From NCBI GenBank assembly GCA_001567185.1, contig LNFR01000043.1:1-47229 (forward strand): a stretch of DNA of 47,229 bases, given 5' to 3'. Made by a program: the position numbers and the translations under genes. Source of the stretch: Bacteroidetes bacterium OLB12. Its GTDB lineage: Bacteria > Bacteroidota > Bacteroidia > Cytophagales > Cyclobacteriaceae. Position 1 is the stretch's first letter, and the number at the start of each line of letters is the position of its first letter. The notes beneath the pieces are model-generated. The model was not told the DNA's origin. It saw only the letters and a program-made list of their open reading frames with translations, and did no database searches. Below are positions 4,310 through 19,276 of the stretch, one piece after another.

Positions 4310-4366
4310 CAAATTTCACGCTGTTAGGATTGTGAGTTGTTATATGGATTACTGAAAGATTTACCA
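4310..4366 (-). promoter_or_regulatory. Promoter A: shared AraC-regulon operator plus -7 box
   Basis: The operator-like element is at 4341-4366 (+ strand begins TATATGGATTACTG and ends TTTACCA). On the minus strand it is followed after 23 bp by a -7-like box GAAATTTG (4317-4310), then the SDR start at 4274. The same element with the same 22-23 bp spacing occurs at 5682, 8821 and 19251. It would lie about -35 to -60 from the start of transcription, as for an activator. Confidence 0.6.
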
Positions 4367-4398
4367 CTATTACTGGCAGGCCGGGAATACAATCGGTT

Positions 4399-5622
4399 TT
4401 ATCTGCCAGGAATGTGTTTTTTCTGTATTATGCCCCTGGAAATGATGACTACGGCCGCAAGGAAAACAACAGCACCTGCCAGAAAAATGGATTGAGCACC
4501 GCTGAAGTCGAAGACAAGACCACCGGCCGCAGCTCCAATCGCCATTCCTAATTGAATATTTGCTACAAGCAATCCGCCTGCACTTTCGGATTCATCGGTT
4601 ACTGCCTTACTCAGCCAGGTGGACCAAGCCACAGGCACACTTCCGAAGGTAAATCCCCACAGGGCAACGAGTAAAGAAGCGATCCACCCAATGGATCCCA
4701 ACAACGCCAGGCCGATGGCTAACATCACCAATACAACGGGAGCGCCAACCTGGAAAACTCTCAACGATTTTTTGAGCAATGGTCCGCTGATGGTGGTGCC
4801 CATAAAACTGGCGATACCAAAGGCAAGCAACACGGCTGAAATACCCGGCACTGACATATGTGTGATGGTTTCTAAAAATGGGCGCAGGTAGGTGAACGCC
4901 ATCATGTGCGCTCCAAATACCAGCAACACCGCAAGCATTCCGGCTCCAATCTGCGGGCGCTTCATTACTACCAGCAAGGTGCTGAGCCTTGTATTGCCTT
5001 GCGGAGAAAGAGAAGGCATTGCGAAGAACTGCCATATAAAAGCAAGAACACCAAGAACAGCCGCCAGCATGAAGGTACCGCGCCAGCCCATCAGTTCGCC
5101 CAGGTACGTTCCCAATGGCGCTGCAATTGCCGTGGCTATAGAAACAGATCCGAATATGATAGAGAACGCTTTTCCAACCTGGTCACCGGGTACAAGCCGC
5201 ATGGCTACCGCAGCGGCTATTGCCCAGAAACCACCCAGTGCAACCCCGAGCAAAAGCCGACCTGTTAAGAGGACAAAGAAATTATTGGCAAATGCCGCCA
5301 GCAAATTTGATGCGATAAGCATGACAGAGAACGCCAAGATCACGGTTCTTCTGTCGATCTTCTTGGTCACTACTGCGGTTAGTAAACTCGACAACAAGGC
5401 AATGACCGCGGTAGCGGTTACCATTTGTCCGGCCGTTCCTTCTGAAATGGCCAGATCATTTGCCATAGGGGTGAGCAGGCTAATGGGTAAAAACTCTGCC
5501 ACGATTAAACCGGCAACACCCATTGCCATAGAGAAAACAGCACTCCAAAATGGTTTACTGACGGATGCATCGTTCAATTCAATACCATCCAATACTGCTA
5601 CTTTTGTTTCAACGATTTCCAT
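4399..5622 (-). CDS. nepI: MFS exporter, NepI-like
   Basis: A 407-residue major facilitator of the DHA1 group with about twelve membrane helices. The segment AEFLPISLLTPMANDLAIS, then LGGFWAIAAAVAMRLVP and VPVAWSTWLSKAV, follow E. coli NepI (purine ribonucleoside efflux) closely. The substrate here is inferred only; in this setting it may export a toxic metabolite or reaction product. It has its own copy of the shared operator (promoter B) 60 bp upstream, diverges from an AraC gene, and is separated from the SDR operon by promoter A, so it is probably its own transcription unit in the same regulon. Confidence 0.85.
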   Translation of the reverse strand: MEIVETKVAVLDGIELNDASVSKPFWSAVFSMAMGVAGLIVAEFLPISLLTPMANDLAISEGTAGQMVTATAVIALLSSLLTAVVTKKIDRRTVILAFSVMLIASNLLAAFANNFFVLLTGRLLLGVALGGFWAIAAAVAMRLVPGDQVGKAFSIIFGSVSIATAIAAPLGTYLGELMGWRGTFMLAAVLGVLAFIWQFFAMPSLSPQGNTRLSTLLVVMKRPQIGAGMLAVLLVFGAHMMAFTYLRPFLETITHMSVPGISAVLLAFGIASFMGTTISGPLLKKSLRVFQVGAPVVLVMLAIGLALLGSIGWIASLLVALWGFTFGSVPVAWSTWLSKAVTDESESAGGLLVANIQLGMAIGAAAGGLVFDFSGAQSIFLAGAVVFLAAVVIISRGIIQKKHIPGR

Positions 5623-5650
5623 TTGATTTCATTTTTGTTTTAATGCAGAG

Positions 5651-5707
5651 CAAAGGTCCGCCTGAAAAGTGGGGCTGGCTGTATATGGATTACTGTATTT
5701 AGTAGCT
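5651..5707 (-). promoter_or_regulatory. Promoter B: shared AraC-regulon operator plus -7 box
   Basis: The element at 5682-5707 (TATATGGATTACTG, less conserved at its far end, AGTAGCT) lies 23 bp upstream of GACCTTTG (minus strand, 5658-5651), and the MFS start is at 5622. It sits in the divergent region between the exporter and the AraC gene at 5771. Confidence 0.6.
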
Positions 5708-5770
5708 GTTTTACTGAGTTCTGTTTTTTGGAGAGCTTGTGTTAACTTTATCATGATTTTGAAGTTTTCG

Positions 5771-17114: not shown

Positions 17115-17115
17115 G

Positions 17116-18189
17116 TTAGTTTTGTTTTCCAGAATCCAGATTCTTATTAAAGAAATCGGTCAATTTATGGATCGCTTTATCCACGTACTCCTGCTTCCAA
17201 TAACTTTGTATATGCGTTGCCCCTTCAAGAACAAAAAGCTCCTTACTCTTCGCATTCGTTGCCTTGTTGAACGCATCGTCTGTCATATATTTTGTATCCG
17301 CTTTGCTTCCCGCAATCATCAAGAGGGGCTGCGTTAATAAATCCATATTGGTGGTTGCATCCCAGGTCATCAAATCCAGTAAGCTGCTCATGGTGTACAG
17401 GAAGGTGGAGTTTGGATGCGCATGCGTTCGGTAATAATACTGGTACCCCTCGCGATATAAATCGGTTGGCGTTTTTGCGATTTCTTCATCGGTTATACTT
17501 GCCACGCCCGCGTAAATTATTTCACCACCGGCTATTTCTTGTGCCCGTGCTTCCGATGCTTTTTGCAGGCGTTCCTGAATTGTTGCAGTCTGCGAATTTT
17601 GAAATCCATTGCGTCTTACTTCGCCTGTGTTGAACATGCTTAGGGTTGATACGGCCTTAAACCTCTTGTCCGACTGGGCCGCCTTGATGGTGTAACCACC
17701 TCCCCCGCAAATGCCAAGCACACCGAGACGGTTCGCATCTACACCTGCGTAATGGGTAATGAAATCAGCCATACCATGGATGTCGTCAATGCGGAAGGCA
17801 GGCTTGTCCGTGTGTCGGGGTTCTCCACCGCTTGCACCCTGAAAGGCTGCATCCGCAGCGATGGTGATAAAGCCCGATTCCGCCAAACGCTGCGCATAAA
17901 GTCCGGAAGCTTGTTCTTTTACTCCACCGTTGGGATGAGCAACTACAACTGCCGGATACTTTTTGGTTGGGTCATAGTTAGCCGGTGTGTAAACATTTGC
18001 TGCAATATCAATTCCATTCAGTTTATACCGCACGGGATGGATGTTCACCTTATCTTTCACATTCCCAGTAAGGGCACCCTCATATACCAACGTGAAAGGA
18101 TTTTGTTTCTTAATTTTTTGATTCGTTTGAGCCGTAAGGGTATCAATACTGGCTGCAATTGCGAGTGTCATTACTACAAGATACTTCAT
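17116..18189 (-). CDS. Exported alpha/beta hydrolase with Cys nucleophile
   Basis: A 357-residue protein with signal peptide (ending TLTAQ). Related to the dienelactone-hydrolase/YcjY-like group: AHPNGGVKEQ near residue 85, ADAAFQGASGGEPR, and a nucleophile elbow LGICGGGGY with Cys161 in place of Ser. The acidic residue is probably in AGSKADTKY, and His in EGATHIQSY. A Cys nucleophile is known from dienelactone hydrolase. It is the second gene of the promoter D operon, 17 bp after the AKR. Confidence 0.85.
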   Translation of the reverse strand: MKYLVVMTLAIAASIDTLTAQTNQKIKKQNPFTLVYEGALTGNVKDKVNIHPVRYKLNGIDIAANVYTPANYDPTKKYPAVVVAHPNGGVKEQASGLYAQRLAESGFITIAADAAFQGASGGEPRHTDKPAFRIDDIHGMADFITHYAGVDANRLGVLGICGGGGYTIKAAQSDKRFKAVSTLSMFNTGEVRRNGFQNSQTATIQERLQKASEARAQEIAGGEIIYAGVASITDEEIAKTPTDLYREGYQYYYRTHAHPNSTFLYTMSSLLDLMTWDATTNMDLLTQPLLMIAGSKADTKYMTDDAFNKATNAKSKELFVLEGATHIQSYWKQEYVDKAIHKLTDFFNKNLDSGKQN

Positions 18190-18206
18190 ACTTTCCTTCT
18201 TTATGT

Positions 18207-19190
18207 TTAGCGATCAACTCTTGACTGCAAATGCTGTGGATAGCGTGCCCCCTGAATTTCAATCTGCGAGAATGCACGTTCAATTTCATTCAAATCTTCC
18301 CTCGACAACGTGAGTTGTTCGGCTTTCAGATTTTCCTCTAACCGATGAATTTTTGTTGTGCCGGGAATCGGTACAATCCATGGTTCTTGCGCAAGTACCC
18401 AGGCAAGGGCAACCTGTGCAGGTGATGCGTTCTTCTTTTTTAGCAAACTCCGTTACCTTGTCAACAACCACCTGGTTTGCTTTTCGATTGTCCTCATTAA
18501 AACGAGGCACCACGTTGCGAAAATCTGTTTTATCAAATTGGGTGTTAGAATTAATTGCTCCTGTAAGAAAGCCTTTGCCAAGGGGGCTGAATGGAACAAA
18601 TCCAATTCCCAGTTCTTTAAGCGCGGGCAAAATCTCTTGCTCTGGCTCCCTCCACCAAAGTGAATACTCACTTTGAAGGGCCGCTACCGGAACAACTGCG
18701 TGCGCCCTGCGTATGGTTTGAACTCCTGCTTCAGATAAACCGAAATATTTTACTTTACCTTCGGCAATAAGTTCTTTTACCGTGCCCGCTACTTCCTCGA
18801 TAGGAACAGCCGGATCAACACGGTGTTGATAAAACAAATCGATCCGGTCTGTCTTCAATCTTTTTAAAGACGCCTCGGCAACCGCCTGATGTTTTCAGGA
18901 CGGCTATCCAACCCGGCTGTGGAGTTGCCCCCTTTAAAACCGAATTTAGTGGCCAGTACTACTTCATTGCGAAAAGGTTGAACTGCTTCGCCCAGAAGTT
19001 CTTCGTTAATGAACGGTCCATACGCTTCGGCCGAGTCAAAGAAATTTACACCGAGTTCATACGCTCTCCGGATCAACTTTACTGCTTCTTTCCTGTCGGT
19101 AGCTGGTCCGTATCCAAAACTTAATCCCATGCAGCCAAGTCCGATGGCAGATACTTCCGGACCGTGCTTCCCAAGCTGTCTATGTTTCAT
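18207..19190 (-). CDS. Aldo/keto reductase, AKR13-like (two frameshifts)
   Basis: Full-length homologue of the gene at 6829-7833, split over three frames. The start is [20 protein letters not shown] at 19190. The frame breaks at about 18881-18886 (one base short after RPENIR) and again in a run of six T on the + strand (18436-18441; one base too many, restoring [15 protein letters not shown]). With both corrected the tetrad (DSAEAYG, TKFGF, YQHRVD) and the C-terminus are intact. It is the first gene after promoter D. Confidence 0.85.
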
Positions 19191-19219
19191 AATGTTTTGC
19201 CTCGATCTTTTTTTCATAG

Positions 19220-19276
19220 CAAAGGTGATGGAATACCCGCTCCTGAAAGGTATATGAATTACGGTTTCACCTACCA
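19220..19276 (-). promoter_or_regulatory. Promoter D: shared AraC-regulon operator plus -7 box
   Basis: The element at 19251-19276 (TATATGAATTACGG, ending CACCTACCA) lies 23 bp upstream of CACCTTTG (minus strand, 19227-19220), with the AKR start at 19190. It drives the longest operon of the island (AKR, Cys hydrolase, cupin, hydrolase, cupin-SnoaL, flavodoxin, CMD, carboxylesterase, hydrolase). Confidence 0.62.

Follow-up and report, generated by a model that had tools for sequence, protein, structure and literature searches.

The 47,229-nucleotide stretch of DNA analysed here (the window; contig LNFR01000043.1 of Bacteroidetes bacterium OLB12) carries four copies of an element at positions 4341, 5682, 8821 and 19251, each upstream of minus-strand genes. 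Judging from their sequence, conservation, spacing and gene company, these elements are very probably the operators of one clade of AraC-family regulators, which are predicted to activate divergent oxidoreductase, esterase and efflux genes.

All four elements, which a preliminary description of the window had picked out, were found exactly at these positions on the plus strand, with TATAYRRATTACKG at each. The short motif reads TATATGGATTACTG at 4341 and 5682, TATACAGATTACGG at 8821 and TATATGAATTACGG at 19251; the gap between TATA and ATTAC had been given as two or three bp, and is 3 bp at every site. A TACCA end, announced for three of the four, is present at 4341, 8821 and 19251, and the same position reads TAGCT at 5682. 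The start of CAAA (TTTG on the minus strand) lies 31, 31, 30 and 31 bp from TATA at the four sites, in that order, which reproduces the 23, 23, 22 and 23 bp proposed between each element and an 8-bp −7-like box on the minus strand. Downstream of all four are predicted minus-strand detoxification genes, as had been claimed: short-chain dehydrogenase/reductase (SDR), aldo-keto reductase (AKR) and DUF2255 genes, an MFS gene, a carboxymuconolactone decarboxylase-family (CMD) and AKR pair, and a run of about ten genes. Three elements, those at 5682, 8821 and 19251, adjoin AraC genes, in agreement with the earlier reading. The features concerned are the following, mismatches being counted to a 35-bp pattern of the element.

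4341..4377, minus strand: operator 1, TATATGGATTACTG-N7-TACCACTATTACTG, 0 mismatches, no adjoining AraC gene.
4310..4317, minus strand: −7-like box of operon 1, GAAATTTG on the minus strand, CAAA 31 bp before TATA.
973..4274, minus strand: operon 1, SDR, AKR, DUF2255 and AKR genes (Pfam/NCBIfam; SDR start by reading frame).
5682..5718, minus strand: operator 2, TATATGGATTACTG-N7-TAGCTGTTTTACTG, variant distal half, 2 mismatches.
5651..5658, minus strand: −7-like box of the MFS gene, GACCTTTG.
4399..5622, minus strand: MFS transporter (Pfam/NCBIfam), nearest model NepI, below cut-off.
5771..6670, plus strand: AraC-family regulator P0001 (Pfam HTH_18/HTH_AraC), divergent from operator 2.
8821..8857, minus strand: operator 3, TATACAGATTACGG-N7-TACCAAAATTCCCG, 1 mismatch.
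8791..8798, minus strand: −7-like box of the CMD-AKR operon, GAACTTTG, 1 bp closer to the operator than the others.
6829..8693, minus strand: operon 3, CMD-family protein and AKR (Pfam).
8895..8902, plus strand: −7-like box of the P0002 gene, TACATTTA, 74 bp from the start of operator 3.
8924..9822, plus strand: AraC-family regulator P0002 (Pfam), frame broken near the 5′ end in this assembly.
19251..19287, minus strand: operator 4, TATATGAATTACGG-N7-TACCAATTTTACGG, 0 mismatches.
19220..19227, minus strand: −7-like box of operon 4, CACCTTTG.
9884..19277 (whole run), minus strand: operon 4, upstream genes: AKR (interrupted), DLH-like hydrolase, cupin (interrupted), 378-aa protein, cupin-DUF4440.
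Same run, minus strand: operon 4, remaining genes: flavodoxin, CMD, carboxylesterase, BD-FAE esterase, hexapeptide acyltransferase (Pfam/NCBIfam).
19325..19332, plus strand: −7 box of the P0003 gene, TAATTTTG, 74 bp from the start of operator 4.
19355..20251, plus strand: AraC-family regulator P0003 (Pfam; AlphaFold model and PDB comparison).

Further copies exist in the same genome. The bipartite pattern TATAYRNATTACNG-N7-TACCA has 5 exact matches in its 3.6 Mb, namely three window sites and two on another contig (C72), and the 35-bp pattern, at up to 3 mismatches, has 6 matches, compared to 0 for a reversed control. Bipartite matches with 2 or 3 mismatches, 5682 excepted, were classed as background collectively. 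The C72 site at 87914 faces genes for 2Fe-2S and molybdopterin-binding subunits of the aldehyde/xanthine oxidase group, and the one at 99665 faces those for an outer-membrane factor, an AcrB-type pump and a membrane-fusion protein (RND efflux); neither adjoins an AraC gene of the clade. The figure of about 17 genes proposed for the regulon is thus right for the four gene sets of the window, which add up to roughly that number, and too low for the genome. In a close relative (G023), the oxidase pair and an operator of its own follow shortly after the ten-gene operon, with a cyclophilin-like gene in between. A sixth exact match to the short pattern (C95:1891) falls inside a predicted open reading frame (ORF) and was dismissed as chance.

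The element is also conserved across Bacteroidota. From a scan of named genomes, the best 80 of 321 candidates encoding a P0003 relative were retained as loci; they include Cyclobacteriaceae, Sphingobacteriaceae, Chitinophagaceae, Hymenobacteraceae, Flavobacteriaceae and Weeksellaceae. Loss from orthologous intergenic regions, which the preliminary description had named as speaking against its proposal, is not what was found: the element is present upstream of araC in 74 of the 80 loci with at most 4 mismatches to the 35-bp pattern, in a single orientation, 90–110 bp from the araC start in 73 loci and 218 bp in one. In these 80 regions the reversed pattern scored 6–10 mismatches at best. When the operon side was compared with a set of enzymes from the window, C72 and G023, the closest-lying match was on the minus strand in 75 loci, at most 450 bp from araC in 68; five loci gave no match to the set. 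Six loci with more than 5 mismatches (L178, L183, L202, L203, L205 and L213, the last with merely 104 bp of upstream sequence) were excluded from the column, repeat and promoter counts given below.

Column counts over the 74 loci indicate that the element, present as first described, is longer than had been noted: it is an imperfect direct repeat of about 37 bp with a 21-bp period. Most of the information is in columns 0–13 and 21–36, corresponding to two imperfect half-sites of 14–16 bp, TATACNGATTACKG and TACCANTATTACTGAT. When columns were compared at shifts of 3 to 28, only 21 bp was significant after correction (z 3.65, corrected p 0.0097), and at some sites the repeat is obvious, one instance being TATACATTTTACGG with TACCACTTTTACTG 21 bp further on. 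An earlier log-odds repeat score had put shift 28, with its shorter overlap, on top, and 21 well above its neighbours; it was replaced by the column-permutation test, where shift 28 had a corrected p of 0.06 and was dropped. Inverted symmetry, compared on the mean match score only, gave at best 0.43, against 0.55 for the 21-bp direct repeat. A 20-bp period is found in L205, with 1 mismatch, and in L178, in a subclade with Fermentimonas; the −7 box is at the same distance there, and this form reads as a natural spacing variant.

To which regulators does the element belong? A tree was built with 112 AraC proteins out of 145 loci, those dropped being short or identical proteins or having less than 150 bp upstream. 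The element, counted at up to 5 mismatches in its 21- or 20-bp form, accompanies 97 of the 98 rows of the clade that holds all three window paralogues, and 0 of the 14 rows outside it, where best scores were 8–11 mismatches. The tree carried a long-branch warning, which makes placements, including that of P0001, less certain. Within the genus (62 genomes), sites with at most 2 mismatches were present in 20 of 22 genomes having a clade AraC gene versus 0 of 40 where none was found (Fisher p 2.5×10−14), in a count made by hand where two of the 22 hold fragments only. Allowing 3 mismatches, the figures became 22 of 22 and 5 of 40. Genomes G058–G083 were scanned with P0001 alone at E 1e-50, so that AraC fragments could have escaped there.

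In our view it is extremely improbable that by-eye selection of chance matches, or conservation as part of promoters or coding DNA, accounts for the sites. The short motif, at up to 2 mismatches, has 8 matches in the window; 100 shuffles averaged 3.2 and always gave fewer than 8, but this pattern was derived from the four sites themselves and the test is post hoc. Among the 41 genus matches, the 13 at 3 mismatches are mostly background, the reversed control giving 14 in all; however 28 have at most 2, two of the 5 exact bipartite matches of the genome were new, and the element both sits between divergent genes and accompanies the AraC clade.

We placed the operator relative to the promoters. 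The −7 box of Flavobacterium is TAnnTTTG, at −12 to −5 (PMC9723704; PMC6847099, both in excerpt). Computed from the placement of this box, the operator would cover roughly −36 to −72 in the target promoter and so lie upstream of the box, in agreement with the activator-like position suggested earlier. CAAA is exactly 31 bp from the element in 60 of the 74 loci. The target −7 box has A at −11 in 68 loci and T at −12 in just 7, and all four target boxes of the window lack this T, which has been described as nearly invariant in F. johnsoniae. With a −7 box usually devoid of T at −12 and an operator starting near −36, an activator should be required; such a weakened box is what one would expect of an activator-dependent promoter.

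On the other side, 65 of 74 loci have TAnnTTTG in the stretch from the operator to the araC start, versus 1 of 74 in the reversed control (69 versus 35 for the shorter TAnnTTT). Counted from the operator start, TAnnTTT is at exactly 74 bp in 55 loci and at 73–75 bp in 62, whereas its distance to the start codon ranges over 24–35 bp in nearly all cases, and the box of araC has T at −12 in 67 of 74. A-rich columns around −18 and −30 of the araC promoter resemble AT-rich motifs described at −18 and −28 (excerpt of PMC6847099). In the window, TAATTTTG (P0003) and TACATTTA (P0002) are at 74 bp, and P0001 has only TGATTTTG, at 72. The fixed phase of the operator with both promoters suggests that it also controls araC, in one direction or the other. 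A scan for sigma-70 promoters and terminators yielded background numbers only, as expected for a sigma-70 model in Bacteroidota.

We propose that a regulator dimer would bind on one helix face to the two half-sites 21 bp apart. With the proximal half-site starting at about −36, the bound regulator would act in the class II position, recruiting RNA polymerase and so turning on genes for aldo-keto reductases, other oxidoreductases, esterases and efflux. This operator, being also at about −50 to −86 of the canonical promoter of the regulator, would govern araC as well. The inducer may be a reactive carbonyl or a xenobiotic. The term redox regulon used earlier fits the target enzymes at best, and redox sensing is unsupported. 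Many AraC-family proteins can both activate and repress, and the operator abuts the promoter, so one could picture repressors or two-way switches instead of simple activators of the minus-strand operons. This is unlikely: the element does not cover the start but lies upstream of the −7 box, and the box weak at T −12 is that of the targets, the araC box being canonical.

P0001, P0002 and P0003 are the only close paralogues found in the genome, all three inside the window; a fourth match covers the DNA-binding part only, at 33%. All three exceed the Pfam cut-offs for a C-terminal double helix-turn-helix (HTH_18/HTH_AraC), the AraC/XylS fold of P0003 is backed by a structural match of its AlphaFold model in the PDB, and an N-terminal ligand/dimerisation domain of the AraC/RhaR type was recognised. 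P0003 is the paralogue with most close orthologues found, and the element of operator 4 is present too at its 97% identical AraC orthologue in G023. P0001, which falls within the operator clade on a long branch, is 44% identical to P0003; no orthologue above 46% was found in the genus, and 395 genomes of the phylum gave one at 80% and three at 46–47%. The 80% orthologue, from another class, is preceded by a like operator variant, TARCTRTTTTACTG.

This divergence of P0001, and the distal-half variant that 5682 shares with the site of the 80% orthologue, leave a possible, if less favoured, explanation: paralogues with split specificities, each acting mainly on its own operator, in place of a single regulon. 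It is compatible with the activator scheme preferred here. However, 4341 and both C72 sites are canonical without any adjoining AraC gene, and an SDR-AKR operon which in genome G475 is divergent from a P0001-type AraC gene has a canonical site here. The claim of one AraC regulon stands as far as the element tracks one clade, but the 5682 variant and the three paralogues may mean two or three overlapping regulons. A second P0001-like element occurs in G475 (L285) at 12578, with 3 mismatches and CAAA correctly spaced, near the orthologous SDR-AKR operon.

Targets were also examined in other genomes of the order, in 20 regions around zero-mismatch sites, which cover 22 of at least 31 zero-mismatch rows outside the home genome. 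These regions contain 24 sites at up to 2 mismatches. At 22 sites, the first gene recognised on the operon side lies no more than about 450 bp away and is of one of the following kinds: AKR, molybdenum-oxidase pair, cupin, flavodoxin, DLH hydrolase or carboxylesterase. One of these matches is at just 31% identity. CAAA is at the expected place in 22 of 24, and 11 sites have no directly divergent AraC gene. TAnnTTTG stands at 74 or 75 bp in 9 of the 13 sites next to AraC versus 1 of the 11 others (p 0.0045). Related targets, CAAA and the sites without AraC together look like a regulon, more than self-contained gene pairs.

Several observations weigh against the activator-operator interpretation. 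Shared descent among rows inflates the conservation counts. L178, L202 and L203 fit only the 20-bp-spaced form, with 4 mismatches, L263 fits it with 5, and L183 has no match to either the 21- or the 20-bp form. The related gene is only at about 590 bp in L276, there is none on the operon side of the second site of L281, and the RND genes begin about 370 bp away from the C72 site at 99665. CAAA is missing from its expected place at 2 of the 24 sites. Site 5682 has two mismatches, and P0002 has a broken frame in the present assembly. A fixed phase by itself fits repression of araC as well as its activation. Finally, the usual distance from a −33 TTG to the −7 box is 19–21 bp, and a TTG so placed is possible in at most 7 of 74 target promoters; this absence carries little weight, as the −33 element is weak generally in F. 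johnsoniae (excerpt of PMC6847099).

Some further observations concern the genes themselves. The last AKR of operon 1 has DkgA as its nearest model, with a score below the model cut-off (NCBIfam), and a cupin ORF at 397–930 may belong to the end of this operon. The gene order of operon 4 resembles that of G023; its cupin was called by eye and by relatives, and the ten-gene run may form a single transcript. Three genes have interrupted frames: P0002 (8924–9000), a cupin (16655–17113) and an AKR (18286–19277). The AKR is whole in G023, hence assembly error and recent decay are both possible in this genome. The 378-aa protein (15490–16626) is found in many of these operons at 50–94% identity, has no Pfam or NCBIfam match, and resembles, by eye, a secreted alpha/beta hydrolase. 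Next to P0003 are genes for the molybdenum cofactor (moaE, moaC and moeA, 21133–24647), and a molybdopterin oxidase pair is in the proposed regulon. Two large PKD-domain proteins are encoded at 40375–45624, of which the second carries a type IX secretion C-terminal domain.

We lean, by a little, towards a wider reading: a Bacteroidota-wide stress regulon under one AraC clade, whose operator would be locked on both sides, substituting for the upstream element of a weakened target promoter and ending about 50 bp before the start of the canonical araC promoter, one dimer setting both rates. If this is true, the geometry is so strict that sequence alone would reveal the regulon over much of the phylum. 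In any case the operator can be read in many genera, where it names oxidoreductases, esterases and efflux genes that are likely co-induced. It offers a test case for an activator working with the unusual −7 promoter of Bacteroidota, and a possible inducible promoter system once the inducer is established. To our knowledge, an operator has been defined for few transcription-factor regulons in Bacteroidota other than those of sugar use, and a search of titles and abstracts of open-licence papers found no published description of this operator or regulon.

AraC-family activators that work through 21-bp direct repeats are a known kind of system. In E. coli, araI1-I2 is an AraC-family operator with a 21-bp direct repeat, in which the araI2 half-site touches the polymerase-binding region, as the proximal half-site would here. 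Rhamnose regulators of the AraC family in Bacteroides, Bacillales and Enterococcus are reported to have such repeats (PMC3870299, in excerpt); family, two-domain build and repeat are thus shared. The present system differs from these sugar systems by its motif, its oxidoreductase, esterase and efflux targets, its Bacteroidota promoters and the fixed coupling to a divergent araC promoter. YqhC of E. coli also belongs to the AraC family. In the YqhC-YqhD-DkgA system (PMC8262776, in excerpt) the activator adjoins aldehyde reductases, as the predicted one does here, with the DkgA-nearest AKR (below cut-off) in operon 1, and YqhC is suggested to modulate its own expression. Compared as regulon types, ours includes in addition cupins, CMD proteins, esterases, a molybdenum oxidase and efflux. 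The MarA/SoxS/Rob regulons resemble it in their AraC-type DNA-binding domain and in combining stress enzymes with RND efflux. However, MarA, SoxS and Rob bind single sites as monomers, whereas the operator described here is a tandem repeat and its regulator has an N-terminal AraC/RhaR-like domain.

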